From NCBI GenBank assembly GCA_013001045.1, contig JABDNG010000071.1:1-38071 (forward strand): 38,071 nucleotides of DNA, written 5' to 3'. This document shows, piece after piece, positions 1 through 28,934 of the stretch. Made by a program: the position numbers and the translations under genes. The stretch's first letter is position 1. The number at the start of each line of letters is the position of its first letter. Origin of the DNA: Woeseiaceae bacterium (GTDB lineage: Bacteria; Pseudomonadota; Gammaproteobacteria; Steroidobacterales; Woeseiaceae). The notes below the pieces were generated by a model. The model did no database searches, was not told where the DNA came from, and worked only from the letters and a program-made list of their open reading frames with translations.

Positions 1-1049
1 ACGTAACAGGCTGCACCGCTGTTCACCGAGAGCGAGAATCCGACAATTTCGGCTTCCATGTAGTCGAGACTCGTCGTTTCAGTATCGAACGCCGTGAGTT
101 TCGCTTTGTTGATTTTCTTGATCCACCGATCAAGGGCTTCCCACGTCAGCACGGTTTCGTAGTCACCTTTTTCTTCCGGGACGGGCGCCGCCGGTTCGTC
201 TGCGTTTTCATCGAGGAGACGAAGTAACGAACGCAATTCGAAGTGGCTGTACAATTTGCGCAGCGCATCGTTGTCGGCTTCGCCTGCTTTGAGGTCGTCG
301 ATGCCGACCGCGAGGTCGACGTCTTTGCGGATAGTCGCAAGTGCCTGTGACAATCGAAGTTTATCGACGTTATCGCGAAGGCTTTCGCCCACCTTGCCCT
401 TGATTTCCTCGCCGCGCTCGACGATGCCGTCGGCGCTGTCGTAAAGGTTGAGCCATTTCGCGGCCGTCTTCGCGCCCACCTTCGGCACGCCCGGGATATT
501 GTCCGAGGTGTCGCCAACGAGGGCGAGATAATCGACAATCTGTTCAGGATAGACGTCGAATTTGGCCTTCACGGCGTCACGATCGAGCCTGGTGTCATCC
601 ATCGTGTTGACGAGTGTTACTTTATCGTTGACGAGTTGTGCGAGGTCCTTGTCGCCCGTCGAGACCAGCACCTTTAGCCCATTGCCGGCAGCCTGCTCAC
701 ACAAGGTGCCAATGACATCGTCGGCCTCCACGTCGGCGACGCGCAGTAACGGCAGTCCCATGGCCTGGACGGCGTCGAGTATTGGCTGAACCTGCGAGCG
801 CAGCTCGTCCGGCATCGGCGGCCGGTTTGCCTTGTAGTCCGCGTACAGCTCATCGCGGAACGTCTTGCCCGGCGCATCGAAGACGACGGCGATATGTGCC
901 GGCTGCTCCTCACGAAGCAGCTTCAGGATCATCGTTAGTACGCCATGCAATGCCCCGGTAGGTTCACCTTGCGAGTTGGTGAGCGCAGGCAGCGCATGAT
1001 AAGCGCGATACAAATACGACGATCCGTCGATAAGAACAAGATCGGTCAT
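1..1049 (-). CDS. polA: DNA polymerase I, N-terminal part (3' end of gene outside window)
   Basis: This gene encodes the replication and repair polymerase that removes RNA primers and fills gaps. Only the first 349 codons are present, because the gene runs off the left edge. The start ATG is at 1049-1047. The 5'-nuclease domain opens with IDGSSYLYRAYHAL (residues 7-20), followed by VVFDAPGKTFRDE and the metal-binding VEADDVIGTL, as in E. coli PolA. A helix-hairpin-helix segment follows. The 3'-5' exonuclease domain begins with the Exo I motif FDTET at residues 321-325, so a proofreading-type enzyme is expected. The gene starts 10 bases after the lptM stop and is probably cotranscribed with it. 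The polymerase domain cannot be assessed here. Confidence 0.96.
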   Translation of the reverse strand, partial: MTDLVLIDGSSYLYRAYHALPALTNSQGEPTGALHGVLTMILKLLREEQPAHIAVVFDAPGKTFRDELYADYKANRPPMPDELRSQVQPILDAVQAMGLPLLRVADVEADDVIGTLCEQAAGNGLKVLVSTGDKDLAQLVNDKVTLVNTMDDTRLDRDAVKAKFDVYPEQIVDYLALVGDTSDNIPGVPKVGAKTAAKWLNLYDSADGIVERGEEIKGKVGESLRDNVDKLRLSQALATIRKDVDLAVGIDDLKAGEADNDALRKLYSHFELRSLLRLLDENADEPAAPVPEEKGDYETVLTWEALDRWIKKINKAKLTAFDTETTSLDYMEAEIVGFSLSVNSGAACY

Positions 1050-1059
1050 CCGTGGTTTC

Positions 1060-1236
1060 CTAACCCGTTGGGGTTTCGCTGTTTTCTTCTTTCTCTTCGT
1101 CGGCCTCCGCAGGCGCGGGCGGCACGGTCTGGATCTTGCTGGGGTCGCCGGGCAGATACAGTGGACCGCTTTGGCCGCAACCTGCCGACAGCCACACGAA
1201 CGAGATGGCGGCAAGCGCAAGACTAACGCGTTTCAT
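1060..1236 (-). CDS. lptM: LptM-like small outer-membrane lipoprotein
   Basis: A 58-residue lipoprotein. It has a short signal peptide (residues 1-19) and a lipobox, LSAGC, with the lipidated cysteine at position 20. The mature N-terminus, CGQSGPLYLP, is the hallmark of LptM (formerly YifL), which assists assembly and disulfide maturation of the LptD/E LPS translocon. The tail (residues 38-58) is rich in proline, alanine and glutamate and is probably disordered. A longer reading frame extends upstream, but its extra residues look non-coding, so I start at MKRVSL (ATG 1236-1234). The gene lies between argH and polA; in many gammaproteobacteria lptM is instead next to lysA or dapF. Confidence 0.85.
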   Translation of the reverse strand: MKRVSLALAAISFVWLSAGCGQSGPLYLPGDPSKIQTVPPAPAEADEEKEENSETPTG

Positions 1237-1264
1237 GTCAATGCCCCGTAGCAGCGATGCGTCG

Positions 1265-1293
1265 ATTATAGGGGCCTCGGCGGGAAATGGGGC
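1265..1293 (-). promoter_or_regulatory. possible promoter for lptM-polA
   Basis: Reading the minus strand, a perfect TATAAT -10 lies at 1270-1265. At 17 bases spacing there is only a poor -35 (GCCCCA, 1293-1288). It sits in the 58-base gap after argH and about 30 bases ahead of the lptM start. The -10 match is good, but the rest is weak. Confidence 0.4.
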
Positions 1294-1294
1294 A

Positions 1295-2479
1295 TCATTT
1301 TGCGTAGCGCTTCGCGACTTGCCGATACGCATCGCGAAAGGGAATGCCGTCCTCCCGCACCAGCCGGTAGGCCTCGGAGGTTGCGAAGATGCCTTCATCG
1401 AGTTCGATGTTTTGCGGCAGGAATCGCACGCCCTCGAGTACGTAAGCCATGATGTCTACGCTCTCCATCGCGAGGTCGATGGCGCGAAATAACGGTGACT
1501 TCAAGCGCTGCAGGTCGCGGTGATAACCCGACGGCAGTTTCGCCGTAATCATGAGCGACTCGTCGAGGCACGCCTGTGCCGTTGCCGAGGACGCGCGCAG
1601 CAGTTCGAGGACATCGGGGTTGCGTTTCTGAGGCATGATCGACGAGCCGGTCGTCACCTCGGCGGCCAGCGAGACATAGGCGAATTCTTGCGTATAGAAC
1701 ATCAGCAGGTCACTGGCCATGCGGCTTAAGTCTTGCAACAACAGCGTAATCTCAAACAGCAGCGCACTTTCCGCCTTGCCACGTGACAACTGCACGGCCG
1801 TGACGGGAGATTGTGTCATGGCAAATCCGAGTTTCTCTGTGGTCAGGTCACGGTCAAGCGGCAAGCCCGGTGTGCCGTAACCGGCTGCGCTGCCCAGGGG
1901 GTTCTTGTCAATGCGCCGGTTCGCGGACGCCAAACCCGAGATCGCGTCGGCAAATCCCTCATTGAATGCATCACACCAGAGCGCAACGGAGGAGGGCATT
2001 GCCTGTTGCATGTGGGTGTAGCCTGGTATCTCGACGTCGCCCTGGCGCTTTGCCAGGTCGACGACCGACGACTGCAGGTCTTCGACGCGGCTGGAAAGAT
2101 CGAGCGCGGCTTCGCGCAGGTAAAGACGCAGTGCGGTCAGGACCTGGTCGTTGCGTGAGCGGCCAAGGTGCAGGCGACCGCCTGCGGGGCCGATGTCGGC
2201 CGTCAGGCGAGACTCGAGTGCCGTGTGTACGTCCTCGTCGTCAAGAGTGATGTGCCACTCACCCGCGTCGAAACTGGTCTCGAGGGCATTGAGGCCGTCA
2301 CGAATTGCGGCACAGTCTTCATCGCTGATCAGCCCGACCGCTGCCAGCATCTCAGCATGCGCGATCGAGCCCCGTACATCATGGGATACAAGGCGGGCAT
2401 CGAGCAGGTGGTCTTCGCCGGCCGTGTAGCGCAGTACACGCTCGTCCAGTGGCAGGCCTTTTTCCCACAGTCTGCTCAC
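1295..2479 (-). CDS. argH: argininosuccinate lyase
   Basis: Last enzyme of arginine synthesis: it splits argininosuccinate into arginine and fumarate in the cytosol as a homotetramer. The family signature GSSIMPQKRNPD is at residues 278-289, with catalytic Ser280. The general acid/base region GYTHMQQA (His156) and GGRLHLGRSRNDQV (from residue 100) are also present. Start is GTG at 2479-2477, overlapping the argB stop (GTGA), so the two are translationally coupled. At 394 residues it lacks most of the C-terminal helical tail found in E. coli ArgH (about 457 residues). The next frames downstream show no continuation, so this is a natural short form rather than a frameshift. Confidence 0.95.
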   Translation of the reverse strand: MSRLWEKGLPLDERVLRYTAGEDHLLDARLVSHDVRGSIAHAEMLAAVGLISDEDCAAIRDGLNALETSFDAGEWHITLDDEDVHTALESRLTADIGPAGGRLHLGRSRNDQVLTALRLYLREAALDLSSRVEDLQSSVVDLAKRQGDVEIPGYTHMQQAMPSSVALWCDAFNEGFADAISGLASANRRIDKNPLGSAAGYGTPGLPLDRDLTTEKLGFAMTQSPVTAVQLSRGKAESALLFEITLLLQDLSRMASDLLMFYTQEFAYVSLAAEVTTGSSIMPQKRNPDVLELLRASSATAQACLDESLMITAKLPSGYHRDLQRLKSPLFRAIDLAMESVDIMAYVLEGVRFLPQNIELDEGIFATSEAYRLVREDGIPFRDAYRQVAKRYAK

Positions 2480-3405
2480 GAGTCGTCGCCCTGCTCGGCA
2501 GGTGTTAATGCGCCGATGTCATCGACGACGAGCGTGCCGGTGCCTTCGTTGGTAAAGACCTCGAGCAGAATGCTGTCCGCAAGCTTGTAGGAAATAACAT
2601 GCACGCGTTGCACGCCGTTGGCGAGCGCAGAATCTATCGCCGCAGCTTTTGGCAGCATGCCATCGGCCAGGCTCCCTGAGGCTTTCAGTCTTGCCAGTGC
2701 CGCGCGATCGATATAGCTGATTAGCGAGCCCGGATCATCGACATCCTCGAGGATGCCCGCGGCGCCGGTTGCGAGTATGAGTTTCTCGGCACCGAGTTCT
2801 GCGGCGATCGCGGCGGCCACGGTGTCGGCGTTGATGTTCAGTATCGTTCCTGATTCGTCGCAGGACAGCGGGCTGACGACGGGCATCAGGCCGTTTTCGA
2901 GTTGCTTTCGCAGCACATCGGCATCGACGGCGTCGATGTCACCGACGAAGCCGTAATCGACGGCCTCTTCGCCGTCGCGCTCGACGGGCGGCCGTTTATG
3001 CGCGCGAATCAAACCCGCGTCGACGCCACTCATGCCAACGGCCGGAATTTGCAGGTCCCGGCACGCCGCCAGGATGCGCGTGTTGATCTGGCCGTTGAGC
3101 ACCATTGTGGCGACGTCGAGCGACGCGCCATCCGTGACGCGCCGACCGTCAACGAAAGTCGAATCGAGGCCGAGTGTCGCCGCAAGTTTGGTCGATTGCG
3201 GACCACCGCCGTGAATCAGCACGACCTTGATACCCACCTGGTGCAGGATTCCGACCTGCTCCATGAACGCGCTCGTGTGCGCCGCGTCGGCGAAGATCTC
3301 GCCGCCGGCTTTGATGATGAAAACCTTGCCTTTGAAGAGGCGAATATACGGCGCCGCGTGCTTCAGGGCCGATACGACGATGGCGCGATCTCTCTTGGTG
3401 GTCAT
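2476..3405 (-). CDS. argB: acetylglutamate kinase (N-acylglutamate kinase)
   Basis: Phosphorylates N-acetyl- (or N-succinyl-) glutamate at the gamma-carboxylate, the second step of the acylated arginine pathway. It has the amino-acid kinase fold with the phosphate-binding lysine/glycine motif IIKAGGEIF (residues 30-38), then LIHGGGPQ, RRVTDG, INADTVAAAIA, and the usual C-terminal strand EVFTNEGTGTLVV. Length is 309 residues: longer than the E. coli enzyme (258) but far shorter than bifunctional synthase-kinases, and no GNAT domain is fused. Its start overlaps the argF' stop by one base (TGATG) and its end overlaps argH by four. Confidence 0.93.
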   Translation of the reverse strand: MTTKRDRAIVVSALKHAAPYIRLFKGKVFIIKAGGEIFADAAHTSAFMEQVGILHQVGIKVVLIHGGGPQSTKLAATLGLDSTFVDGRRVTDGASLDVATMVLNGQINTRILAACRDLQIPAVGMSGVDAGLIRAHKRPPVERDGEEAVDYGFVGDIDAVDADVLRKQLENGLMPVVSPLSCDESGTILNINADTVAAAIAAELGAEKLILATGAAGILEDVDDPGSLISYIDRAALARLKASGSLADGMLPKAAAIDSALANGVQRVHVISYKLADSILLEVFTNEGTGTLVVDDIGALTPAEQGDDS

Positions 3406-4409
3406 CAGCGGCCTCCCAACATCTGGTGCAACACGGCCATCTGCGCAAGCATGCGATTGCGTGCTTCGGGAATCACGACGCTGCGCGGCCCGTCAAGGAT
3501 ATCGTCAGCGACGACAACGCCGCGCCGGACCGGGAGGCAGTGCATGAAACGACAGTCATCCTGCGCATTGCCGAACCAGGATTCGTCGACACACCAGTCC
3601 AGGTGTTGTTCGCGTAATTTCTGATCGGCAAGCCGATCGCCGTAGTGTCGCGTTGACGACCATGACTTGGCATAGATGACGTGCGCGTCCTGCATGGCCT
3701 CGTCGCGGTCATTGCTTTCCTTAATGGATCCGCCGGCAGCATCAGCCGCGGCGGTCGCTTTTTGCATGAGTTGATCCGGCAACTCGAATCCTTCGGGACG
3801 CAACACGGTCACGTCCATGCCGCGTTTTGCCGCCATGTGCAGCGTCGCGGCCGGCACGGCGAGCGGCAGCGCTTTCGGGTGGTAAGCCCAGCTCAGCACG
3901 AACTTGCCGCCATTGGACGGGATGCCGAGGTCGTCCATCGTCTTCCAGTCGGCCAGGCTCTGGCACGGATGATTCATGGCGGATTCCATATTGATGAAGG
4001 GCGTATCGATCAAGTCCGTGAGCGCCGTGAACTCGGTTTCCTGCAGGTCATCCTCAATATTCTTTCGCTCGGCAAACGCACGAATACCGATCGCATCGCC
4101 GTACGAGGCGATGACGGGCACGGCTTCGCGAATGTGTTCGGCAGCCGTACCGTCCATGACAATACCGGGCCGCGTCTCAAGTCCATGAATAGACATGTCC
4201 GGTGAAATAACAAACGACCCGCCGCCCAGTCGCGTCATCGCGGCCTGGAACGACGCGAGCGTTCGCAGCGAGGGGCTCAGAAACAGCAGCGATAAAACCT
4301 TGCCTTTCAGTGCGTCCGGTTCGGGATGCGCATCGAGCCGGCTGGCGAGTGCGACGAGCGCCTTGATTTCATCGTTGGAAAAATCGGCGAGGTCGTTAAA
4401 CGCTTTCAT
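3405..4409 (-). CDS. argF': N-acylornithine carbamoyltransferase (acetyl- or succinyl-ornithine)
   Basis: Transfers carbamoyl phosphate to an N-acylated ornithine, giving N-acylcitrulline. This is the variant route known in Xanthomonas (acetyl) and Bacteroides (succinyl). Evidence: the carbamoyl-phosphate site SPSLRTLASF, the segment MDGTAAEHI, HPCQSLADW, the distinctive WAYHPKALPLAVP, and the C-terminal HCLPVRRG. True ornithine carbamoyltransferases lack these last two features. Two oddities: the normally arginine-rich SxRTR loop reads SLRTL, and the residue aligned with Glu92 of the Xanthomonas enzyme is Ala. Which acyl group it uses is therefore open. The start has a clear AAGGA ribosome binding site; the stop overlaps argB. 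Confidence 0.88.
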   Translation of the reverse strand: MKAFNDLADFSNDEIKALVALASRLDAHPEPDALKGKVLSLLFLSPSLRTLASFQAAMTRLGGGSFVISPDMSIHGLETRPGIVMDGTAAEHIREAVPVIASYGDAIGIRAFAERKNIEDDLQETEFTALTDLIDTPFINMESAMNHPCQSLADWKTMDDLGIPSNGGKFVLSWAYHPKALPLAVPAATLHMAAKRGMDVTVLRPEGFELPDQLMQKATAAADAAGGSIKESNDRDEAMQDAHVIYAKSWSSTRHYGDRLADQKLREQHLDWCVDESWFGNAQDDCRFMHCLPVRRGVVVADDILDGPRSVVIPEARNRMLAQMAVLHQMLGGR

Positions 4410-4460
4410 TAGCGGGTTCCTTATTTTCGTTCATGGCAGTCTTCGTGCCGATACGTGTCG

Positions 4461-5651
4461 TTAGGATGCCACCGGCGCGATGCTTGCGAGCGCATGCGCG
4501 AGGTGGTCGATATGTCCGGTTTCGAGCACCAGCGGTGCCAGTATCCGCAAGACGTCGGGATCGCTGCTTGTGCCGGTCAGTATGTCGTGCTCCAGCAGCG
4601 CGTTCCGCACTTCGACGGCCGGCCGATCGCAAACCAGCCCGAGCAGCAGCCCCATGCCCTGGATTCTGGTCACGGGGCCGACGACGCATTGCTCACGAAT
4701 CTGCGCTTCACATCGACGAACGTTAGCCAGTAGCCCTTCGGCTTCGATGGCCTCGATCGTTGCGGCAATTGCAGCCGCGGCGACGGGTCCGCCGCCGAAT
4801 GTCGAGCCTAAGTCGCCGGGCCCGAAATGTGCGGCCAAAGCGTGGGTGCACATTACAGCCCCGCAGGGAATGCCACCGCCCAGTGCCTTCGCGCTCGTGA
4901 TGATATCGGGCTGAATGCGGTGTGCCTGTACCGCAAAGTAGTGCCCACAACGGCCGATGCCGGATTGCACTTCGTCGGCGATCAATACGACGCCGTGTCG
5001 TTGCGTCTCTTCACGCAGGGTTTCGAGAAAACCGGTCGACACATCGTAGGCGCCGGCTACCCCTTGCACGGGCTCGACGATCACAGCCGCGATGTCACTG
5101 TTGATCATCGCCTTGGCGGCGTCGACATCGTCGCGCGGAATGAAATCAGTTGCGAAGGGTTTCGATGGGAAGCCATACCATTTTTCCGAATTCCAGGTGA
5201 CGGCGGCCGCAGCGGCGGTTCGCCCATGGAATCCGTGAGTCAAGGCGAGAATCTTCTTACGACCGGTTGTTATGCAGGCCATGCGTAACGCGTTTTCGTT
5301 GGCTTCGGCGCCCGAATTCACAAAGAAGAGACGCTCGAGCCCGGGCGGCGCAACGCGCACCAGGCTTTCCGCTGCACGCGCACGAACCTCGAGGGCCACC
5401 GAGTTGCTCTGAAACAGCAGCTTGTTGCTCTGTTCCTGAATGGCTTTCAGGAGACGGGGATGACCGTAACCCAGCGCGGCGACGGCATGTCCGCCATAGA
5501 GGTCCAATATGCGCCGGCCGTCTTTGGTGAATATGTCACAGCCGCTGGCGCGCTCCGGAACGAACGGCAGTTGCCCGTAGACCGGGATCATGGTGTTGGC
5601 CTCGCGCATTCGCGGATCGGACATTACATTCGTTTCGCCGGGTGTCTGCAT
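4461..5651 (-). CDS. argD: acetylornithine/succinylornithine aminotransferase
   Basis: PLP-dependent class III aminotransferase that converts N-acylglutamate semialdehyde to N-acylornithine using glutamate. With the start chosen here (ATG 5651-5649, overlapping the argC stop as TGATG) it has 396 residues. Key features are LDLYGGHAV (49-57), VNSGAEANENALR (111-123), FHGRTAAAAA, IADEVQSGIGR with the PLP-ring aspartate Asp226, and the Schiff-base lysine Lys255 in SAKALGGG. A longer frame reaches 5720, but those 23 residues lie inside argC and look non-coding. LYGGHAV resembles ArgD proteins of Bacteroidetes arginine clusters (from memory). A gap of 51 bases separates it from argF'. Confidence 0.92.
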   Translation of the reverse strand: MQTPGETNVMSDPRMREANTMIPVYGQLPFVPERASGCDIFTKDGRRILDLYGGHAVAALGYGHPRLLKAIQEQSNKLLFQSNSVALEVRARAAESLVRVAPPGLERLFFVNSGAEANENALRMACITTGRKKILALTHGFHGRTAAAAAVTWNSEKWYGFPSKPFATDFIPRDDVDAAKAMINSDIAAVIVEPVQGVAGAYDVSTGFLETLREETQRHGVVLIADEVQSGIGRCGHYFAVQAHRIQPDIITSAKALGGGIPCGAVMCTHALAAHFGPGDLGSTFGGGPVAAAAIAATIEAIEAEGLLANVRRCEAQIREQCVVGPVTRIQGMGLLLGLVCDRPAVEVRNALLEHDILTGTSSDPDVLRILAPLVLETGHIDHLAHALASIAPVAS

Positions 5652-6712
5652 CAGGTCCAGCCCGGCGCCGGCGCCGTGAGCCCTGTCGTCTCGGGTAGCT
5701 TCCAGAGCCGGTTCATCCACTGTATTGCGCCACCCGCGGCGCCTTTCACGAGATTGTCAATTGCGCTCATGACAACGACCGAGTCGCCGTCAGTCGCGAC
5801 GCTGATGTGACACATGTTGCTGGCCACCACGTTCTTGAGGCGGGGCGTCCCGGCTACAACTGCAACGAATGGCGACTTCGCATAGGCCGATTCAAAGACG
5901 TCGCGCAATTGTGCCTCGGTCACTGGTGCCTTGGCGCGCGCCTGTACTGTGACATGTATGCCGCGCGCGAAGGGGCCCGAGTGCGGCACGAAATGCACGC
6001 TGGTTTCGCGCCCGCTGGCGGCCGTTGTGAGACCCGCCATCTCCGGGGCATGTCGGTGCGCCAGCGGCTTGTACGCATAAAGGTTGCTGTTGCGTTCCGG
6101 GTGATGCGTGCCCGCTTGCGGGCTGCGGCCCGACCCCGTGCTGCCCGTGATTCCACTGACGAAAACGTTGGTGTCGGTCAGGCCGGAACGCATGAGCGGT
6201 ACCGCCGCCAGCAATGTTGCGGTTGCGAAGCAGCCGGGATGTCCGACGTGTGTTGCATCCACGGCGTCGACATGTTCCGGTACGGCGCAGACAAACTGGT
6301 CCAGAAGTTCCGGGGCGCCATGGCCCGTCTTGTAGATGGCTTCGTAGTCGCTGCGCCTGGCGTAGCGAAAATCGGCGGACGAATCGACGACATGACATTC
6401 GATGCCTTTGTTAGCGGCGGCGTCGAGTGCGTTCGCAATGATGGCCGCAGACGCGCCGTGCGGCGCAGCCGAGAACAATGCGAGTTTGCTGTTGGCTTCG
6501 ACATGACCATGCCAATCGTCGCTTGCGACAAATGAAACACCGGTGAGCGCCTGGGCGAGGTGACCGAACGTATCGCCAATCGATGCGCCGGCGCGGCTGT
6601 CAGAGACGGCGGCGGCCAGTTCGAAATCGGGGTGTGCCGCGATCAATCGCAGCAGTTCGCCACCAACGTAACCGCTGGCGCCCAGGACGACGGCGCGAAT
6701 CGTGCGGCTCAT
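5651..6712 (-). CDS. argC: N-acetyl-gamma-glutamyl-phosphate reductase
   Basis: NADPH-dependent reductase that makes N-acylglutamate semialdehyde, the third step of the pathway. The N-terminal Rossmann motif is VVLGASGYVGGELLRL (residues 8-23). The catalytic cysteine is Cys161 in VGHPGCFATA, and the second catalytic region is HFVPHSGPFARG. Length is 353 residues, normal for the family. The start (ATG 6712-6710) overlaps the stop of the preceding P-loop gene by four bases, and its own stop overlaps the argD start by one, so it is tightly coupled on both sides. Confidence 0.95.
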   Translation of the reverse strand: MSRTIRAVVLGASGYVGGELLRLIAAHPDFELAAAVSDSRAGASIGDTFGHLAQALTGVSFVASDDWHGHVEANSKLALFSAAPHGASAAIIANALDAAANKGIECHVVDSSADFRYARRSDYEAIYKTGHGAPELLDQFVCAVPEHVDAVDATHVGHPGCFATATLLAAVPLMRSGLTDTNVFVSGITGSTGSGRSPQAGTHHPERNSNLYAYKPLAHRHAPEMAGLTTAASGRETSVHFVPHSGPFARGIHVTVQARAKAPVTEAQLRDVFESAYAKSPFVAVVAGTPRLKNVVASNMCHISVATDGDSVVVMSAIDNLVKGAAGGAIQWMNRLWKLPETTGLTAPAPGWT

Positions 6713-7764
6713 GACTTTTCCTTTCTTAGCAGGCCGGCGACCATATCCCCGAGAGCAACGCCGTGTGAGAGCGCGTTGATGGCGGGAAGCGCAAGGCGCT
6801 CGTTGATCTGCTGAACACCGACGTCGTTATCGGTCGCGGGTCCTGTGACGACGGCGGGTTCGATATTGAAATCGTTACGCAGGATCTTCGCGCCACCCCA
6901 GGCCGAAACGGGATCATTGGCGCAGAGAACAACGATACTCAGGGCGTCACGTATTGCCGCATCGGACAGTATGGCTTCAACGCCGTATGCGCCAAGCAGG
7001 CCGTCTCCGAGTTCCAGCACGATGACGTCCGGGCTCTTCTTTGCCAGGCCCGTCAACAGTGCCCGTGTCAGGGCCGGCCCGTTTTTCTCGGTTGTCGTCA
7101 CTATGCCGAAATCCGAAAAGATCATGGTTTCCGATGCGCCTGCGTCTTCCATTGCCAGGACGTCACGTCGCAACGACACGCCCGTCGCTTTACACGCCGA
7201 CACCTTGAATCCGAGATGGCGAAGCCGGCCAACAATCGCGCACGCCGCCGCTGTTTTTCCGGAGTCCATGCAGGTGCCTGCCAATGCGATGACGGGAACA
7301 CGATTGGTATTGAGCACGGCATCGTCAGTCAGCGCGTTCGCGCCCGCTCTCGCAGGCACGCCGATTCGTTCGCCCAGGTACGGAAAACTCAAGACCGTGC
7401 CGAGCACCTCGCAGTCGAACGGGGGCCCGACATCCGGATTGGCAGAGTCGCAAATTCCCAGCACGCCTCCGATGTTCAGAATCTGAATGGTATCGCCCGG
7501 GACGAGCGACTCGGGAAGGTGGCCCGAGTATCCGCGTAGCGCTTTACGATGCCCGAGGGCGCCGACGATGATGTCGCCCTGGTTGACGGTCGCCATTCGT
7601 CCCGATGTGAGTTCGAGCTGGTTATAACGCGACTTGTTGTTGAGCACGCGCGCTGCAATCAACACGCCTTCTTCGCAAGGAATATCGTGAGCGAGCCGCA
7701 GTTCTGCCGTGAGAGCATTGTGTTGTGCCACGGACGCTATCTTGTCGACGACGGCGTTTTTCAT
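6709..7764 (-). CDS. uncharacterised P-loop protein inside the arginine operon (DUF1611/BioD-like)
   Basis: I do not recognise a named family with certainty. The 351 residues fall into two parts. Residues 1 to about 150 look all-beta, with VNQGDIIVGALGHRKALRGY and a later GDTIQILNIGGVLGIC. From about residue 155 a P-loop domain begins, with a Walker A-like GTCMDSGKT, then KATGVSLRRD, EDAGASE and VLELGDGLLGAYG. The order GT-C-GK-T, ATG, DAG, E-G-G-YG recalls DUF1611 proteins and, more distantly, dethiobiotin synthetase-type ATPases. It overlaps argG upstream and argC downstream by four bases each, which ties it to arginine synthesis. A role in N-acylglutamate formation or in regulation is possible but unproven. 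Confidence 0.75.
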   Translation of the reverse strand: MKNAVVDKIASVAQHNALTAELRLAHDIPCEEGVLIAARVLNNKSRYNQLELTSGRMATVNQGDIIVGALGHRKALRGYSGHLPESLVPGDTIQILNIGGVLGICDSANPDVGPPFDCEVLGTVLSFPYLGERIGVPARAGANALTDDAVLNTNRVPVIALAGTCMDSGKTAAACAIVGRLRHLGFKVSACKATGVSLRRDVLAMEDAGASETMIFSDFGIVTTTEKNGPALTRALLTGLAKKSPDVIVLELGDGLLGAYGVEAILSDAAIRDALSIVVLCANDPVSAWGGAKILRNDFNIEPAVVTGPATDNDVGVQQINERLALPAINALSHGVALGDMVAGLLRKEKS

Positions 7765-8966
7765 GACGGTTTCCCCGCCCGCGTCTGCAGCGAACCTGTC
7801 AGTGACAGGATGCGCGCGTAACCAACGGCGTCACTCGCCGTCCATTCGCCCGCAGATTCGCCGTAAACGCCCTTGGTTGCCGCAAGCAGGGAATACGGCG
7901 AACTGACCCCTTCGATGAATAGCTGGCCGGGACGCAGCGCGAACCGCACCGTGCCGGTGACTCGTTTTTGCGAAGACGCCAGCAATGCTTCGATGTCGTC
8001 GCAGGCCAGGTCCAGCTGTTTGCCTTCGTGGACCAGATCGCCGTAAACAGCTGCAACACTGTCCTTGATTCGTGCTTGTTGCGCACTCAACACCAGCTTT
8101 TCGAGTTCGCGGTGTGCGGTGATGAGCGTGATCGCCGCGGGCGCTTCGAATGCGACGCGGCCCTTGGTGCCGAGCACGGTGTCGCCCAGATGTATGCCGC
8201 GACCAATGCCATAGCCACCTGCGAGGACTTCGAGTTTTTCGATAAGATCGACCGGCGACAGCGATTCGTTGTTCAACGCGACCGGCACGCCCGCAGCAAA
8301 CTCCAGCGTATGTTGTGTCATTTCCCTGGGGTCGCTGAACGCGTTTGCCGACAGGACCCACGCGGATTCTGGAATCGTACGATCCGACGTCAACGTTTCC
8401 TGGCCGCCGATCGTGATTCCCCACAGACCCCGGTTGATCGAATAGGCCGAGCCCTGTGGCGGCAGCGGCAGGCCGTTCTTCTCGAGATAGTTCAGTTGTT
8501 CTTCGCGCACCCAGTTGTTGTCACGCACGGGCGCTAACGAGACGAGGTCCGGGTTGAGCGTTCGCAGCGCCACCTCGAAACGTACCTGATCGTTGCCGGC
8601 GGCCGTGCAGCCGTGCGCCACCGTCGTTGCACCGCGTTCGGTGGCGATCCTGGCGAGCCGCTCGGCCTGCAATCCGCGTTCGGCGCCGACGCACAACGGG
8701 TAAGCCTGGCCGCGCAACACGTTGCCGGCGATGAGGTGGCGAATAACGGTGTCGAAGAAGTCCTGTTTCGCATCGATGAGCACGTGTTCGATCGCACCGA
8801 GTGCGAGAGCCCGCTGCTCCAGCGCTACCGCGGCGTCTGCGTCGATGCCGCCCGTGTCCACGCAGGCCGTGATGACGTCCCGCCCAGAGTTTTCCTTCAG
8901 CCACGGCACACAGAACGAGGTATCGAGGCCGCCTGAAAACGCGAGAATGATGGGTGATTGATCCAC
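7761..8966 (-). CDS. argG: argininosuccinate synthase
   Basis: ATP-dependent ligase that joins citrulline and aspartate. The PP-loop AFSGGLDTS is at residues 9-17. VAHGCTAAGNDQVRFE carries citrulline and aspartate contacts, followed by SINRGLWG and ITIGG. Length is 401 residues, as expected. Start is GTG (8966-8964) behind a GGAG ribosome binding site at about eight bases spacing. It is the first biosynthetic gene after argR, 18 bases downstream of it, and overlaps the P-loop gene by four bases. An enzyme acting on free citrulline implies that an N-acylcitrulline deacylase is encoded elsewhere. Confidence 0.96.
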   Translation of the reverse strand: MDQSPIILAFSGGLDTSFCVPWLKENSGRDVITACVDTGGIDADAAVALEQRALALGAIEHVLIDAKQDFFDTVIRHLIAGNVLRGQAYPLCVGAERGLQAERLARIATERGATTVAHGCTAAGNDQVRFEVALRTLNPDLVSLAPVRDNNWVREEQLNYLEKNGLPLPPQGSAYSINRGLWGITIGGQETLTSDRTIPESAWVLSANAFSDPREMTQHTLEFAAGVPVALNNESLSPVDLIEKLEVLAGGYGIGRGIHLGDTVLGTKGRVAFEAPAAITLITAHRELEKLVLSAQQARIKDSVAAVYGDLVHEGKQLDLACDDIEALLASSQKRVTGTVRFALRPGQLFIEGVSSPYSLLAATKGVYGESAGEWTASDAVGYARILSLTGSLQTRAGKPS

Positions 8967-8984: not shown

Positions 8985-9437
8985 TCAGGCGCGCGCGGTA
9001 CGCTCGATCCTGGCAATGAGTTGTTTTTGTGTGTGCGACGAGTCCGTTGCGACAAAGACGGTATCGTCGCCGCCGATGTTGCCGATCATTTCCGGCCAGG
9101 CGCTGCGGTCCAGCGCCAGTGCTACGCGTTGTGCCGCGCCGACAGCGGTCCGAATAACCAGCAGGTTCGGGCCTGCGGGGCTGATCTTGCGAAGCAGGCC
9201 GGCAATGTCGGCCATGTGACTGTCGTTGCTTTCCTCGGCGTCCGCTAACTCGTAGCCACTGGCGGTCTTGATGGCCCCGATCTCGCGAAGGTCGCGACTG
9301 ACGCTGGACTGCGTGGCGATGTGTCCTTGCTGAATCAACGCATTGACGAGGAACTGCTGCGTCGGGGCAGGTCCCTTGTGCAGCTGCTGCCGCAAGGCGT
9401 CGCGCCGCGCCGATTGTTCTTCGGTCGAATTGGGCAT
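8985..9437 (-). CDS. argR: arginine repressor ArgR
   Basis: Hexameric arginine-sensing transcription factor of 150 residues. The N-terminal winged helix carries SSVSRDLREIGAIKT (about residues 44-58). The C-terminal oligomerisation and arginine-binding domain carries VGAAQRVALALDRS and IGGDDTVFVA. It heads the arg operon, and the promoter in front of it overlaps ARG-box-like repeats, so autoregulation of the whole operon is likely. Start is ATG 9437-9435. Confidence 0.94.
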   Translation of the reverse strand: MPNSTEEQSARRDALRQQLHKGPAPTQQFLVNALIQQGHIATQSSVSRDLREIGAIKTASGYELADAEESNDSHMADIAGLLRKISPAGPNLLVIRTAVGAAQRVALALDRSAWPEMIGNIGGDDTVFVATDSSHTQKQLIARIERTARA

Positions 9438-9459
9438 GGTGGTTCTTTAGTCGCAAGAT

Positions 9460-9498
9460 CGCATAAATATGCGCATACTTATATATAAATGCGCATAA
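9460..9498 (-). promoter_or_regulatory. putative ArgR operator (ARG-box-like repeats)
   Basis: The segment CGCAT-AAAT-ATGCG (9460-9473) is a perfect inverted repeat with the half-site and A/T spacer geometry of an ARG box. ATGCGCAT occurs at 9469-9476 and again at 9489-9496, exactly 20 bases apart, about two helical turns. The block brackets the -10 of the argR promoter, a classic position for repression. That ArgR is the protein that binds here is inferred from position and geometry. Confidence 0.65.
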
Positions 9499-9506
9499 TC
9501 CGTCAA
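9478..9506 (-). promoter_or_regulatory. sigma70-type promoter of the arg operon
   Basis: On the minus strand, TTGACG (9506-9501) is followed after exactly 17 bases by TATAAG (9483-9478). This predicts a start near 9471, about 35 bases ahead of argR. The repeats at 9460-9498 overlap it. Confidence 0.7.
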
Positions 9507-21556: not shown

Positions 21557-22486
21557 CTAGTTGCCACGCTCGACAATGAATCGGGCAAGCCAGGCCAGGG
21601 GCGCTGCATTCCGGCCGAAGGCGTCAAGATGTTGCAGCGCGCTATCGAGCAGTTCATCGCAGCGCTGTCGCGCCCTGTCGGGGCCGAACAAGCCGGGATA
21701 CGTCGCTTTTCCAAGTCGCTGGTCCGCGCCAGCCTGTTTGCCGATGATGTGCGTTTCGCCTTCGACATCCAGGATGTCGTCCTTGATCTGAAAAGCAACA
21801 CCGATGGCGCTGGCAAACGCATCGATCGCTTGCGTATCGGCGCGCGACAGGTCTTCACTGAGCAGGCTGGCCGACACAACAGCTGCGTGGATCAGCGCCC
21901 CTGTCTTTAACGCATACATGTGTTCAAGTGCGTCTTCACTCAGGGTATTTCCTTCGGCTGCGAGGTCGATCGACTGGCCACCGGTCATGCCTGTTGATCC
22001 ACAGGCACTGGCAACGAGCTGTACCAGCGCATTCTTCACGGAGGCCGGCACACCGCCGACGTTCGTCAGTACCGAGAATGCCAGGGGTTGCAGCGCGTCG
22101 GCGGCGAGTATGGCGGTGGCTTCGTCATACTTGACGTGCACCGTCGGTTTGCCACGGCGCAGATCGTCATCGTCCATGGCAGGTAAGTCGTCATGCACGA
22201 GTGAAAAGGCATGAATCAGTTCGATGGCCACGGCCGGTGCGTCGAGCAATGTCGTATTGACATCGAGGCACTCGCCGGCTGCGTAAACCAGCAATGGCCG
22301 AACTCGCTTTCCACCATTGAGGACCGCGTAGCGCATGGCCTCGTGAAGCCGGGCTGGTTCGGTCGACGGTCGTGGCAGGGCCGCATCGAGGCAGGCGTCG
22401 ACGCGCTTGGTATAAGTGGCGATACGTTGTTCGAAGGTTTCAGGCAACGGCTCGGGCGCTCCGGGTACGGGCCATGTAGCGTACAC
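21557..22486 (-). CDS. ispA: farnesyl diphosphate synthase (short-chain polyprenyl synthase)
   Basis: Condenses DMAPP and IPP to geranyl and farnesyl diphosphate, using the output of the mevalonate genes next door. GGKRVRP, the first aspartate-rich motif DDLPAMDDDDLRRG, and the second motif FQIKDDILDVEG are all intact. Length is 309 residues with the GTG start at 22486; a TTG at codon 13 is an alternative, and a CATAAT -10-like site only four bases upstream leaves the true start uncertain. Unusually, it is not in an xseB-ispA-dxs cluster, which fits the absence of MEP-pathway genes here. Confidence 0.93.
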   Translation of the reverse strand: MYATWPVPGAPEPLPETFEQRIATYTKRVDACLDAALPRPSTEPARLHEAMRYAVLNGGKRVRPLLVYAAGECLDVNTTLLDAPAVAIELIHAFSLVHDDLPAMDDDDLRRGKPTVHVKYDEATAILAADALQPLAFSVLTNVGGVPASVKNALVQLVASACGSTGMTGGQSIDLAAEGNTLSEDALEHMYALKTGALIHAAVVSASLLSEDLSRADTQAIDAFASAIGVAFQIKDDILDVEGETHIIGKQAGADQRLGKATYPGLFGPDRARQRCDELLDSALQHLDAFGRNAAPLAWLARFIVERGN

Positions 22487-22497
22487 CGAATTATGCC

Positions 22498-22526
22498 GCT
22501 GTGCGCGCGTCCCGCTGGGCTATAAT
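22498..22526 (+). promoter_or_regulatory. promoter of the mevalonate operon
   Basis: A perfect TATAAT at 22521-22526 lies about 40 bases ahead of the mvaD ATG, in the 80-base gap between divergent ispA and mvaD. The -35 at 17 bases spacing (GCTGTG, 22498) is poor, so an activator or a weak promoter is possible. Confidence 0.55.
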
Positions 22527-22566
22527 TCGCGTCCCTGATTGGCAGATAACACCAAGAGTCGTAGAC

Positions 22567-23529
22567 ATGCGGGCAACAGCGATCGCCCAGCCGAACATCG
22601 CGCTCATTAAATACTGGGGCAAGCGCGACCTGGAGCGAAACCTGCCGGCGGTCGGCTCCATCTCGATCACATTGCGGGACCTCTACACAGAGATGTGTGT
22701 CGAACTCGATGAGGGTCTGTCGGCCGACCGTCTCACGGTGAACGGCGCTGTCGATGATGCGCTATTGCCGCGCTTGTCTGCTTGCCTCGACCTTGTCGTC
22801 GGGCGATCCCGTCCGTGTGCGCGGATTGTTAGCCGCTGCAACTTTCCGATCGGGGCCGGTCTCGCCTCATCGGCCTCCGCGTTTGCGGCGACCACCCTCG
22901 CCGCGGCACACGCGGCCGGAAAATCGCTCAGCATCGAGGCGCTTGCCGGACTCGCCGGACAATCGTCGGGATCGGCGGCGCGCTCCCTCTACGGTGGCTT
23001 TGCCGAACTCGAAAACAGGGGCGACGCGATCGCCGTCCGGGCATTGTGTGGGCGTGATGAGTGGCCCCTGAGCGTCGTCGTTGCGATTACCGAAACCGGA
23101 CCGAAGGCGATCGGCTCTACAGAGGCGATGGAAATCAGTCGCAAGACCTCGCCGTTCTACTCGAACTGGGTTGAGCGCCAGAAGGATGACCTGGGAACGG
23201 CTCGCGAGGCCATACTAAAGCGTGACTTCGAACAGCTCGCGACGATCGCCGAACACAATTGCCTGAAGATGCATTCGGTCATGTGGGCATCGCGGCCACC
23301 GACGGTGTACTGGAATTCCGCAACCTTGCGCTGCCTTGAATCCGTACGTGAACTTCAGGGAGCTGGCCTCGGTGTCTTCTTTACGATCGACGCCGGTCCC
23401 CAGGTCAAGGCGGTATGTCTTCCCGAGTACGCAGACGACGTTCGAGCAGCGCTATCTGCAACCGAGGGCGTCGACGACGTCATGGTGACGGGTCTCGGTG
23501 ATGCGGCCCGCCTTACGGATGTCGCGTGA
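22567..23529 (+). CDS. mvaD: diphosphomevalonate decarboxylase
   Basis: GHMP-superfamily enzyme that converts mevalonate diphosphate to isopentenyl diphosphate with ATP. The 320 residues begin at ATG 22567. Signatures are PNIALIKYWGKRD near the N-terminus, the phosphate-binding GAGLASSASAFAA, GSAARSLYGGFAEL, and FTIDAGPQVKAV with the catalytic aspartate region. An upstream frame extension to 22501 overlaps the promoter and is discarded. It is the first gene of the operon; its stop overlaps the next start as GTGA. Confidence 0.95.
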   Translation: MRATAIAQPNIALIKYWGKRDLERNLPAVGSISITLRDLYTEMCVELDEGLSADRLTVNGAVDDALLPRLSACLDLVVGRSRPCARIVSRCNFPIGAGLASSASAFAATTLAAAHAAGKSLSIEALAGLAGQSSGSAARSLYGGFAELENRGDAIAVRALCGRDEWPLSVVVAITETGPKAIGSTEAMEISRKTSPFYSNWVERQKDDLGTAREAILKRDFEQLATIAEHNCLKMHSVMWASRPPTVYWNSATLRCLESVRELQGAGLGVFFTIDAGPQVKAVCLPEYADDVRAALSATEGVDDVMVTGLGDAARLTDVA

Positions 23530-24512
23530 CGGCGGTATCTGCAAGTGCGCCCGGCAAAGTCGTATTGTGCGGGGAGTATGCGGTGCTGGACGGTGCCCCT
23601 GCCGTCTGCATGGCGATCGATCGTCGGGCAACGGTCAAAGTGACGGACTTCGACGGCGACTGGCACTCGGTTGCCGCGCCCGGTTACTCATCGCTTGAAG
23701 GGCGGTTTGTCACCGATGGCGCGCAGCTCGACTGGCTGCAGGGCGGGGATGAATTCGTGATCGTCGATGCCGTCTGGCACGTAGTCGCCAATCGCCTTGC
23801 GCAACGTGAGGGCAACGACTGCTTGCGCATCGAGCTGGATACAAGGGCGTTCATCGATCGCGAATCGGGTGAAAAGATCGGCGTGGGCTCGAGTGCAGCG
23901 CTGACGGTCGCGTTGTCAGCAGCGCTGACTCAATCGACCGACGTGCTTGCGGAAGCCATGCAGGCCCATCACCGTTTTCAAAAAGAAGCCGGCAGTGGCG
24001 TCGATATAATGACCAGCGTGCGTGGCGGCCTGATCGAATACCGCATGAATGCAAGGTCGTCGTCGCCACTACGCTGGCCCGCCGGCCTTGCGTACCGCGT
24101 GATCTGGACCGGCGTAGCGGCCAGTACGCGGATGAAGCTTCAGAAGCTCGCAGACACCCGCCATCGCGCGTCGCGAACGGAACTCTTGAAGGCGGCTGAG
24201 ATCATGGCACCGGCATGGCGATCGGCATCGGGGGTGCTGCGCGAGCTGCCGCGGTACATCGAGGCACTCCGGCAATTCAGCATTGACCACGATCTCGGCA
24301 TATTCGATGCTGGTCACGATCAACTTGTAAACGAGGCAGTCGACGCGGGGCTGGTGTACAAGCCGTGTGGCGCTGGCGGCGGCGATGTCGGTATCTTGCT
24401 GGGCACGAGTGACGAACATCTGGATGAATTTATGAGCAGCCGCCGAGCTTCAGGCGGCCGCGTGCTGAATTGCATGCTTGAAACCGATGGCGTTGAGTTG
24501 GAGCGGCGTTGA
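23526..24512 (+). CDS. phosphomevalonate kinase
   Basis: GHMP kinase of 328 residues that phosphorylates phosphomevalonate. Motif 1 is SAPGKVVLCGEYAVLDG (5-21), motif 2 KIGVGSSAALTVAL, and motif 3 KPCGAGGGDVGI. HRFQKEAGSGVDIMTSVRGG matches the substrate-binding region of phosphomevalonate kinases. The start is GTG (23526-23528) within the mvaD stop, and the end overlaps the following TTG start. Motifs alone would allow other GHMP kinases; the operon context makes the assignment. Confidence 0.88.
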   Translation: MTAVSASAPGKVVLCGEYAVLDGAPAVCMAIDRRATVKVTDFDGDWHSVAAPGYSSLEGRFVTDGAQLDWLQGGDEFVIVDAVWHVVANRLAQREGNDCLRIELDTRAFIDRESGEKIGVGSSAALTVALSAALTQSTDVLAEAMQAHHRFQKEAGSGVDIMTSVRGGLIEYRMNARSSSPLRWPAGLAYRVIWTGVAASTRMKLQKLADTRHRASRTELLKAAEIMAPAWRSASGVLRELPRYIEALRQFSIDHDLGIFDAGHDQLVNEAVDAGLVYKPCGAGGGDVGILLGTSDEHLDEFMSSRRASGGRVLNCMLETDGVELERR

Positions 24513-26719
24513 ACGATTCTAGAATTGCAGGCCTTTACAAGCTCAACGTGGCAGAGCGCATCGACACGCTGGCGCGCGAAGGCTGGTTGACGTCCGCCGA
24601 CGCCGACAGACTTCGTGATGGTCGCCAGGTGTTGTCGAGCGTTGCCGCGGACAAGATCATCGAGAATGTGGTCGGTGTATTCGGCTTGCCGTTCGCAATT
24701 GCGCCAAATTTCCGCGTGAATGACCGCGACTACATCGTTCCGCTCGTGGTCGAGGAACCGTCGATTGTCGCGGCCCTGAGTGATGCCGCGCGCCGCGCCC
24801 GGGGCAGCGGGGGATTTCACGCCAGCTGCGACGAGTCATTACTGGCCGGACAAGTGTATATATCGGGCATCGCGCATGCTGATGCCGCCATGGAGGCGCT
24901 GCGGGCTGCGAAACAGGAGGTGCTGGACGCCGCAAATGAGGTGCATCCCCGTTTGAGTGCGAGGGGCGGGGGTGTGCGCGATCTCGAGGTTCGATTGTTC
25001 TCGCTGCCCGATGGCACGCCGCTCATTCGTGTGCACTTGTGGGTCGATACGGCCGACGCCATGGGCGCAAACCTGGTCAATACGATTTGCGAAGCCGTGG
25101 CGCCGCGAATCGCAACGCTCTGTCAGGGTGACGTGTCGCTAAGGATCTTGTCGAACCTCGCGGATCGATCGATTGTCACGGCGCGGGTTCGCTACCTGCC
25201 GGAGGATTTGACCGGCAGCGGATTTGATGGAGCTGCGGTTCGCGACGCGATTGTCATGGCCAGCAATATTGCCACGGTCGACCCGCATCGAGCGGCCACG
25301 CACAACAAAGGCATCATGAATGGCGTCGACGCACTGGCGATTGCAACGGGTAATGACTGGCGGGCGATTGAAGCGGGCGCGCATTCTTTTGCGGCCGCGA
25401 GCGGACAGTATCGGCCGTTAACGCGCTGGACAGCGGGCACGGACGGTGCCCTGCTTGGCGAAATCGCGATACCGCTAAAGGTCGGCACGGTCGGTGGCAC
25501 GCTGGACGCCAATCCTGCGGCGGCCCTGGGTCTCGCAGTGACGGGCGCGAAAAAGGCTACCGAGCTCGCATCGCTGATGGCGAGTGTCGGCCTGGCGCAG
25601 AATTTTGCGGCTTTGCGTGCGCTGGCGAGCAGCGGGATTCAACAGGGCCACATGAAATTGCATGCCCGCAGCGTCGCCGCCGCGGCAGGAACGCCCGACG
25701 AACATTTTGACGCAGTCGTTGCCCGGCTCATCGATAGCGGCGAGATCAAGGATTGGAAAGCCGAGCAGATTCTCGACGAAATACGCGCCAAGGGTAGCCG
25801 TCAAGATGCGCCGAACGGGACGGCAGCCGGGAAGGTCATACTGTTCGGCGAGCACGCGGCTGTCTACGGTCGTCATGCGCTGGCCTTGCCCATTCCAGAC
25901 GCCGTGCGCGTGTATGTCGAGCAGGCTGAAAGGACCACGTCAGTCGCGATTCCGGATTGGGGCATCTCGGGCGACATCGATCTCGAAAACCTGCACGGCG
26001 TCGATGCCGCAATTAATCTTATTCTGCGGCAACTTGATATCCCAGAAGCCTGTTTCTCGATCACGGTGGACACCCGTTTGCCGAGAGCCATGGGTCTGGG
26101 GTCGTCCGCGGCAATCGCGGTGGCTGTGACGCGGGCAATCTGCGATGTGATGCAGCTCCCGGTTACTGACGAGCGCATCAATGCCATCGTGTTCGAGTGC
26201 GAGAAACTGGCCCATGGCACACCGTCCGGCGTGGATAATACGATCTCGACGTATGCTGAGCCCATGTTGTTCTGTAATGATGGCGCCCTGCAAAGCGAAG
26301 CGCTGACGTTGACGGAAATCCCGCCGCTCGTTATCGCGTGCAGTAATGAGTTGGGATTAACGAGTGAACAGGTCGCCGGCGTAAGATCGAGGTACGAGCA
26401 GGCACCACGACGTTATGAGGCGTTGTTTGATGAAATCGACAAGATCAGCCGGAGCGGAGCGCAGCTTTTGCAGTCGCGTAACTACAAGGCGCTGGGTCTG
26501 GCCATGAATGTCTGCCATGGATTGTTGAATGCGATCGAGGTATCGACGCCCGAGCTGGAGCGCATGGTTACGCTGGCGCGGCAGGCCGGGGCCGTTGGCG
26601 CGAAGCTGACCGGCGGCGGCGGCGGCGGTTCGATTGTCGCACTCTGTCCCGGCACGGTTGACGACGTGCGCACTGCCATGCAGCAAGCCGGGTATCGAAC
26701 ATTGGACATGCAACAATGA
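24509..26719 (+). CDS. HMG-CoA reductase (class II) / mevalonate kinase fusion
   Basis: One 736-residue chain carrying two consecutive steps: HMG-CoA to mevalonate, then mevalonate to 5-phosphomevalonate. Residues 1 to about 428 are a class II HMG-CoA reductase. Catalytic Glu83, Lys267 (HNKGIMNG), Asp283 (TGNDWRA) and His381 (QGHMKLH) fall at the same numbers as in the Pseudomonas mevalonii enzyme, and the cofactor segment is DAMGAN (183-188). After a short linker, residues from about 436 are a GHMP mevalonate kinase: GKVILFGEHAAVYG (441-454), PRAMGLGSSAAIAVA (525-539), HGTPSGVDN (569-577) and KLTGGGGGGSIVAL (699-712). The start is TTG (24509), overlapping the previous stop as TTGA; SRIAGLYKLNVAERI right after it is a normal reductase N-terminus. 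There is no stop or frameshift between the halves. Confidence 0.93.
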   Translation: MNDSRIAGLYKLNVAERIDTLAREGWLTSADADRLRDGRQVLSSVAADKIIENVVGVFGLPFAIAPNFRVNDRDYIVPLVVEEPSIVAALSDAARRARGSGGFHASCDESLLAGQVYISGIAHADAAMEALRAAKQEVLDAANEVHPRLSARGGGVRDLEVRLFSLPDGTPLIRVHLWVDTADAMGANLVNTICEAVAPRIATLCQGDVSLRILSNLADRSIVTARVRYLPEDLTGSGFDGAAVRDAIVMASNIATVDPHRAATHNKGIMNGVDALAIATGNDWRAIEAGAHSFAAASGQYRPLTRWTAGTDGALLGEIAIPLKVGTVGGTLDANPAAALGLAVTGAKKATELASLMASVGLAQNFAALRALASSGIQQGHMKLHARSVAAAAGTPDEHFDAVVARLIDSGEIKDWKAEQILDEIRAKGSRQDAPNGTAAGKVILFGEHAAVYGRHALALPIPDAVRVYVEQAERTTSVAIPDWGISGDIDLENLHGVDAAINLILRQLDIPEACFSITVDTRLPRAMGLGSSAAIAVAVTRAICDVMQLPVTDERINAIVFECEKLAHGTPSGVDNTISTYAEPMLFCNDGALQSEALTLTEIPPLVIACSNELGLTSEQVAGVRSRYEQAPRRYEALFDEIDKISRSGAQLLQSRNYKALGLAMNVCHGLLNAIEVSTPELERMVTLARQAGAVGAKLTGGGGGGSIVALCPGTVDDVRTAMQQAGYRTLDMQQ

Positions 26720-27291
26720 ACGACAATCACAGGATCGTATCGTCAGAGAACGAGGAGTTGATTCTCGTCGATGAGGACGATAACGAACTCGGCCATCTTT
26801 CGAAAGCCCGCTGCCACGACGGTGCCGGTGTTCTGCATCGCGCATTTTCGCTGTTTCTGTTCAACGACGAAGGCGATTTACTGTTGCAGCAGCGCAGCGA
26901 CGAGAAGCGTCTGTGGCCCGGCTTCTGGTCGAATAGCTGTTGCAGCCATCCGCGCCGCGGCGAGTCCATGGAGATCGCAACCGCACGACGTCTCAGTGAT
27001 GAGCTGAATATCGAGGCGGCGCTCGAGCATGTCTACCAATTCTGCTATACGGCGACGTTCGGCGAATCGGGCTCGGAGAACGAGCTTTGCCATGTCTATC
27101 TCGGCAAGCTTGGCGGTGACGTACAGCCTAACGACAGCGAGATTGCTGCGGTGCGTTTTGTAGCTGCATCCACACTCGAGGAGGAACTGTCCCGGGATCC
27201 CGCGGGATTTACGCCATGGTTCAAACAGGAGTGGCGCGAGCTACAGGTAAATCATCGCGAAAAACTGGCGCGCTATTGCAATCCTGCCTGA
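26716..27291 (+). CDS. idi: isopentenyl-diphosphate delta-isomerase, type 1
   Basis: Interconverts IPP and DMAPP; a Nudix-fold metalloenzyme of 191 residues. The catalytic cysteine lies in FWSNSCCSHPRRGES, the catalytic glutamate in GSENELCHVY, and LSDELNI lies in the Nudix helix. LLLQQRSDEKRLWPGFW is typical of the type 1 family. The ATG overlaps the fusion gene's stop (ATGA). It closes the plus-strand mevalonate operon, 100 bases from the convergent HMG-CoA synthase. Confidence 0.95.
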   Translation: MNDNHRIVSSENEELILVDEDDNELGHLSKARCHDGAGVLHRAFSLFLFNDEGDLLLQQRSDEKRLWPGFWSNSCCSHPRRGESMEIATARRLSDELNIEAALEHVYQFCYTATFGESGSENELCHVYLGKLGGDVQPNDSEIAAVRFVAASTLEEELSRDPAGFTPWFKQEWRELQVNHREKLARYCNPA

Positions 27292-27350
27292 ATAGCAAAG
27301 CGCCAGCGATGCGAGAAAGGGAAGTCTATAAAGGGGTCAATGAGCATTTC

Positions 27351-27393
27351 GAGCGAGCTTGCAACAACGTCTTGCAGCGTTGGGCTCGCGCTC
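27351..27393. terminator. possible bidirectional hairpin between idi and HMG-CoA synthase
   Basis: GAGCGAGC (27351-27358) can pair imperfectly with GCTCGCGCTC (27384-27393), enclosing CAACG...CGTTG arms. It lies where two convergent transcripts meet, but no U-tract follows on either strand, so intrinsic termination is doubtful. Confidence 0.25.
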
Positions 27394-28870: not shown

Positions 28871-28901
28871 GTATTCGGGCTGAAGTTGACGTAGCCCGGC
28901 G

Positions 28902-28930: not shown

Positions 28931-28934
28931 CCAT

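Follow-up and report, generated by a model that had tools for sequence, protein, structure and literature searches.

A P-loop protein encoded in the arginine operon of a Woeseiaceae bacterium is a candidate N-succinyl-L-glutamate synthase

The gene between argG and argC in the arginine operon of a Woeseiaceae bacterium encodes a P-loop protein (PLP) that we propose to be an N-succinyl-L-glutamate synthase, a non-GNAT enzyme that would start a succinylated arginine pathway. We give this reading a probability of about 0.75. Both the reaction and the acyl group are inferred, and there are no activity, mutant or metabolite data. The parts of the proposal are not equally firm: we are nearly certain that PLP takes part in arginine synthesis, and its assignment as an N-acylglutamate synthase, a reaction deduced from genomics, is likely. 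The synthase reading rests on linkage to the operon, mutual exclusion with known synthases, a partner carbamoyltransferase of succinyl type, and a DUF1611/DgcN-like fold having a P-loop and a Lys/Asp pair. Throughout, "the window" is the whole stretch of DNA that was analyzed, 38,071 nucleotides long.

The PLP gene and its operon

The neighbors of PLP were identified with Pfam and NCBIfam models, giving the order argR-argG-PLP-argC-argD-argF'-argB-argH (Table 1). PLP shares one ATGA with the stop of argG (7764-7761) and another with the start of argC (6712-6709), so the four-base overlaps with both genes claimed in a preliminary description of this DNA were confirmed from the ORF coordinates. 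The P-loop motifs named there (GTCMDSGKT, KATG, EDAG and ELGDGLLGAYG) are all present in the translation. As that description had also claimed, neither an N-acylglutamate synthase nor a deacylase was found among the identified genes of the window's operon. The description had overlooked that argF' is a carbamoyltransferase of the N-acylornithine kind carrying succinyl-type residues. The true start of argD is probably downstream of the called GTG, near 5624.

Table 1. Features of the arginine operon and of PLP in the window.
Feature	Position	Strand	Description	Basis
PLP (P-loop protein)	6709..7764	-	351 aa, ATG start; candidate N-succinyl-L-glutamate synthase	two-domain DUF1611/DgcN-like fold
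Walker A region of PLP	7252..7278	-	GTCMDSGKT, residues 163-171	G163, G169, K170, T171 invariant in 46 family members
PLP residues 192-251	7012..7191	-	contains K192, D201, D207, D218, E251	K192, D201, E251 invariant in 46 rows
AT-rich TATGCGCAT repeats	9458..9500	-	ARG-box-like, upstream of argR	consensus score vs. shuffles
argR	8985..9437	-	arginine repressor, at the head of the operon	Pfam/NCBIfam
argG	7761..8966	-	argininosuccinate synthase, 4-bp overlap with PLP	Pfam/NCBIfam
argC	5651..6712	-	N-acyl-gamma-glutamyl-phosphate reductase, 4-bp overlap with PLP	Pfam/NCBIfam
argD	4461..5720	-	acylornithine aminotransferase, ORF called from GTG 5720	Pfam/NCBIfam
argF'	3405..4409	-	N-acylornithine carbamoyltransferase, succinyl-type Ala/Pro/Val	NCBIfam and site residues
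argB	2476..3405	-	N-acylglutamate kinase, 309 aa, without GNAT domain	Pfam/NCBIfam
argH	1295..2479	-	argininosuccinate lyase	Pfam/NCBIfam

PLP matches occurred in 115 of the 147 genomes of the order. Six of these genomes have only ~30% homologs, and the remaining 109 carry an ortholog at E <= 1e-58, so the gene is no chance ORF. The complete eight-gene order was kept in all 20 PLP loci compared (20 genomes). On named contigs, argG-PLP-argC was kept in 80/80 loci and the plain eight-gene order in 61 of them, the rest being without end genes or having a gene split into pieces. Overlaps or very short gaps were frequent at the junctions of PLP with argG and argC.

ARG-box-like sites upstream of argR exceeded shuffled sequences (<=5/300) in 11 of 21 sequences. 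The window was not among these, since its best consensus score was reached by 80 of 300 shuffles, and we rejected a common operator signal as weak.

Elsewhere in the window, 21557-29080 holds a mevalonate-pathway cluster with diphosphomevalonate decarboxylase, a NUDIX (IDI-like) protein, HMG-CoA synthase, polyprenyl synthetase, a 736-aa protein that joins HMG-CoA reductase to a GHMP (mevalonate-type) kinase, and a 328-aa ORF without Pfam match. Such a cluster is unusual in a gammaproteobacterium.

Fold and conserved residues

Pfam, NCBIfam and PDB sequence searches gave no family above cut-off for PLP. PF07755 (DUF1611) did not match it at E <= 10, and eight distant paralogs scored 16.8-24.4 bits against that model, below its cut-off of 25. 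MobB was rejected as sub-threshold (21.7 bits vs. 26.6 in one model search and 23 vs. 76.2 in another). No GNAT domain was found in PLP with Pfam or NCBIfam, and it does not qualify as a GNAT-type NAGS (ArgA, NAT, S-NAGS or ArgA2).

A profile of 46 relatives yielded dethiobiotin synthetase as its first match (E 4.8e-4), with the Walker A, K192 and D201 of PLP in register with the Walker A, Lys and Asp of that enzyme. We take the latter two to be the catalytic and Mg ligands of BioD. Besides the residues given as invariant in Table 1, G71, G100, G122, G195, G209, A210, F216, G220, T224 and G308 were identical in 46/46 members.

A structure model built from 46 diverse relatives (pLDDT 94.1, pTM 0.91) replaced one built from 21 near relatives (pLDDT 76.2). 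It matched 2g0t, presumably a DUF1611 member, with Z 17.4 (rmsd 2.8, 178 residues; 17.9 in the other comparison), the DUF1611 protein 2obn with Z 16.5 (rmsd 2.9, 185 residues; 16.6 in the other comparison), and DgcN 7xrj, itself linked to DUF1611, with Z 15.6-15.8 (rmsd 2.9-3.0, 182-187 residues). CTP synthetase (Z 16.5) and dethiobiotin synthetase (Z 16.2) scored about equal to the DUF1611-type structures, on the P-loop domain alone. Z scores within 1 were treated as ties, and fold alone does not show function. The matches extend into the N-terminal half (from residues 51-54) in one comparison; in the other, two of them extend into it less. Having two domains, with the P-loop domain at the C-terminus, the model meets our criterion for a DUF1611/DgcN-like fold. 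The likeness to DUF1611 noted earlier is thus borne out by structural matches to 2g0t, 2obn and 7xrj, but not by a match to the sequence model.

Absence of known synthases

ArgJ was found in none of the 147 genomes of the order by a search that was positive in 10 of 14 controls, and no ArgA match exceeded the cut-off in any of them. The best sub-threshold ArgA match in PLP genomes was as a rule ArgB, at profile positions of about 2-280. The NAT domain (PF04768) of bifunctional NAGS/K occurred in 21/147 genomes and never together with a PLP ortholog (109 PLP vs. 21 NAT; Fisher p 2e-15, kinship ignored). It counts against this search that it matched the 21 relatives only and 0/14 named controls. 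Neither a PLP ortholog nor NAT was present in 17 genomes, 15 of which are also without recognizable ArgB. G100 and G131, which have ArgB, carry PLP-type operons on contigs that stop at argD and argC, short of the PLP position. The synthases that might have spoken against the preliminary description (ArgA over the cut-off, ArgJ, NAT-type) were thus found in no PLP-bearing genome of the order. This absence rests on relatives because the window's own assembly (2.6 Mb) is only 78% complete.

Where complete, the NAT-type cluster reads argF'-argG-gap-NAGS/K-argC-argH. Its ArgB is longer, at 415-449 aa in 18 of 20 loci (296 and 346 aa in the other two). One genus of the window's own family (g7, represented by G137) is of the NAT type.

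Matches to the GNAT model PF00583 ranged from 1 to 21 per genome in eleven genomes. At 1.6 Mb and 98% completeness, G005 is the smallest of the PLP genomes examined. PF00583 detects a single GNAT gene in it, and PF13508 led to the same gene; GNAT families beyond these two were outside the search. The match is to RimI, on a fragment (85.8 bits vs. a cut-off of 86.4), so the check for a GNAT-type synthase left no other candidate in this minimal genome. Several GNATs of unknown role are nevertheless present in most PLP genomes examined, such as 12 in G065, which counts against PLP as the synthase.

Identity of the acyl group

According to PMC4581275, acetyl-type carbamoyltransferases have Glu92, Asn185 and Lys302, and succinyl-type enzymes have A/S/P/V/Q, P and V/I/E at these positions. 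PMC7311316 names S, P, A or V as first-site residues that cause succinyl preference. We defined sites 1, 2 and 3 of argF' as the positions of X. campestris Glu92, Asn185 and Lys302, and checked the mapping by residue spacing (93 and 210 residues) and against deposited chains of one protein that vary at site 1 (A, S, V) and site 3 (A).

The argF' of the window is succinyl-type at all three sites (A-P-V), as are those of 14/20 PLP loci. The other 6/20 read A-P-A and meet the pattern at the first two sites; Ala at site 3 lies outside the published V/I/E set and counts against the succinyl reading. On the 80 named contigs, 69 enzymes were readable, all with Ala at site 1 (67 A-P-V, one A-P-X and one with sites 2-3 cut off). 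Among 17 readable of 20 NAT-type loci, 14 were E-N-K and three E-N-Q. Since the site residues are succinyl-type in PLP loci and acetyl-type in NAT loci, we link the PLP type to a succinylated pathway. Judged from these residues, the acyl group is probably succinyl and not acetyl.

The same residues bear on the alternative that survives best, in which PLP makes N-acetyl-L-glutamate as an L-glutamate version of DgcN. NCBIfam does call argF' an N-acetylornithine carbamoyltransferase (329.9 bits, cut-off 288), a result that counts against the succinyl reading, and the deposited 7xrj, which shares the fold, is labeled an N-acetyltransferase. We nonetheless consider an acetyl product improbable: Ala, Pro or Val replaces Glu at site 1 in all readable PLP loci and Pro replaces Asn at site 2 wherever readable; in NAT-type operons, sites 1 and 2 are still Glu and Asn. 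Acylation of L-glutamate by PLP, as first suggested, gains support from its DgcN-like fold and from the lack of ArgJ, over-cut-off ArgA and NAT alongside it in the order, with succinyl more probable than acetyl as the acyl group.

Orthologs beyond the order and the wider family

A class-level search matched PLP in 34 of 370 genomes. Five genomes of other orders have PLP orthologs with 45-50% identity. Their operon, where complete (4 loci), reads argD-argF'-argB-argH-argG-PLP-argC, and the fifth, on a short contig, reads argG-PLP-argC. The four readable carbamoyltransferases are succinyl-type (three P-P-E, one V-P-E), and the four readable ArgB proteins are 299-324 aa long. None of the five genomes has NAT, by a model that matched no control and does match relatives in the order, and none has ArgA over the cut-off. 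Full ArgA is present in four genomes that have only ~30% homologs.

At the phylum level, 7 of 397 genomes matched PLP. In G711, a genome from a different class, a 65% ortholog is arranged as argR-PLP-argC-argB (L278, contig G711:C23). This PLP nests in the tree among f10 sequences of the window's order, which suggests that the first three arginine steps were likely acquired by horizontal transfer. The PLP proteins of arginine operons form one clade (18 rows, support 100/99).

Linkage and exclusion are harder to reconcile with PLP as a regulatory or assembly ATPase, some unrecognized enzyme making N-acylglutamate instead. Such a role is conceivable because the P-loop fold is also found in SRP GTPases and HypB and no enzyme family model scores above cut-off. 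It has only a slim chance, given that PLP and the NAT synthase domain never co-occur, that two GNAT searches left G005 without a candidate besides RimI, that G711 has retained PLP along with just argC and argB, and that 106 invariant columns among 21 orthologs are enzyme-like. ATP-dependent regulation of the pathway, the second option in the preliminary description, fits worse than a synthase role.

Of six loci with ~30% homologs in the order, five (L071, L074, L076, L083 and L088) have an M20 peptidase gene immediately upstream of the homolog; the sixth, L075, is unresolved. In those five, a flavin-reductase-like gene precedes the M20 gene (Pfam-confirmed in L074), making a recurring trio of unknown role. 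On the Priestia megaterium plasmid NZ_CP085446.1, a cluster at 730-8894 combines a distant homolog (L173) with an M20 peptidase, a PEP-mutase-family protein, ornithine carbamoyltransferase, thiamine-diphosphate enzymes and a pair of ATP-grasp proteins. The cluster may encode a pathway for a phosphonate or an amino-acid-derived natural product. A third subgroup (L171, L172, L250 and L252), in Rhodobacterales plasmids and gammaproteobacteria, is followed by an ABC-transporter gene. The homologs behind M20 genes and the Priestia homolog are consistent with acylation-deacylation chemistry, and the ABC-transporter subgroup is unexplained. Because the wider family also adjoins ABC transporters, acyl transfer is not shown as its general activity.

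The deacylation step

No M20/deacylase gene was found in PLP operons, either in the window or in the loci of relatives. Elsewhere in the genome, G005 has two M20 matches (DapE and a protein of 480 aa whose N-terminus is signal-like), G029 has two (DapE adjoining a dapD-like ORF, and a weak match inside a 731-aa protein), and G048 has three (DapE, a dipeptidase-like ORF and a weak match). In G005, DapE is the one M20 match lacking a signal-like start, and in G029 no other M20 match is strong; DapE equivalogs were confirmed in 5/5 genomes checked. We infer, without activity data, that DapE likely doubles as the desuccinylase of the arginine pathway.

That PLP is itself the N-acylcitrulline deacylase, the other missing step, is scarcely credible: PLP operons do lack the M20 gene that precedes NAGS/K in NAT-type clusters (G137 and G022; others have a gap of ~1 kb there), but the synthase step would stay unfilled, 7xrj, which among solved structures is the nearest relative of stated function, is an acyltransferase, and a P-loop nucleotide-binding fold, such as PLP has, is not known among amide hydrolases of this kind.

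Proposed pathway

As an N-succinyl-L-glutamate synthase, PLP would transfer succinyl to the amino group of L-glutamate. ArgB, ArgC and ArgD would then process succinylated intermediates, the argF' carbamoyltransferase would form N-succinylcitrulline, and a desuccinylase, probably the DapE common to lysine synthesis, would release citrulline, from which ArgG and ArgH would complete arginine.

By analogy with DgcN, the odds that the donor is succinyl-CoA are slightly better than even. ATP plus succinate is still possible because the nucleotide-site residues are conserved. In a more tentative version, which we think rather unlikely, Woeseiales and certain other proteobacteria would open arginine synthesis without acyl-CoA, using a succinate:L-glutamate ligase that is ATP-dependent and resembles dethiobiotin synthetase, and would borrow DapE from lysine synthesis to remove the succinyl group; two succinyl pathways would therefore share enzymes.

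We found no paper in which arginine synthesis was tied to DUF1611 or to a P-loop protein, although subscription papers were mostly outside our coverage. If the synthase reading is true, PLP represents a new non-GNAT enzyme class for step one of arginine synthesis, and an annotation gap is explained. The succinylated pathway, described for Bacteroidetes, would extend to an environmental lineage of Gammaproteobacteria, and the poorly understood DUF1611-like family would gain a second, directly testable substrate.

Comparison with known systems

BioD and CTP synthetase have the same P-loop fold as PLP (Z about 15-17) but act on other substrates, and PLP has an extra N-terminal domain.

DgcN, a D-glutamate N-acetyltransferase, resembles PLP in its P-loop domain and in a fold that could be aligned over residues 54 to 348, and glutamate acylation is the chemistry proposed for PLP. 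The structural alignment with 7xrj has 13% identity; the PLP sequence did not match 7xrj at E <= 1, nor did the broader profile at E <= 10. Unlike DgcN, PLP belongs to an arginine operon and presumably uses L-glutamate and a succinyl group. PMC12363236 is consistent with this role for DgcN and lists Woeseiales among the carriers of dgcN; we infer that the "dgcN" gene in some of them may be the PLP gene.

Sister lineages within the order carry out the first arginine step, the one proposed for PLP, with NAGS/K (ArgB plus the NAT domain, PF04768). This enzyme differs from the PLP type in having a GNAT-type domain and an acetyl-type (Glu/Asn) partner carbamoyltransferase.

ArgA2/BT3761 of Bacteroidetes, an N-succinylglutamate synthase according to PMC7311316 and PMC9026213, has the same reaction as that predicted for PLP. 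Both are linked to a succinylornithine carbamoyltransferase, but ArgA2 is annotated there as a GNAT-family enzyme, whereas PLP is a P-loop protein.
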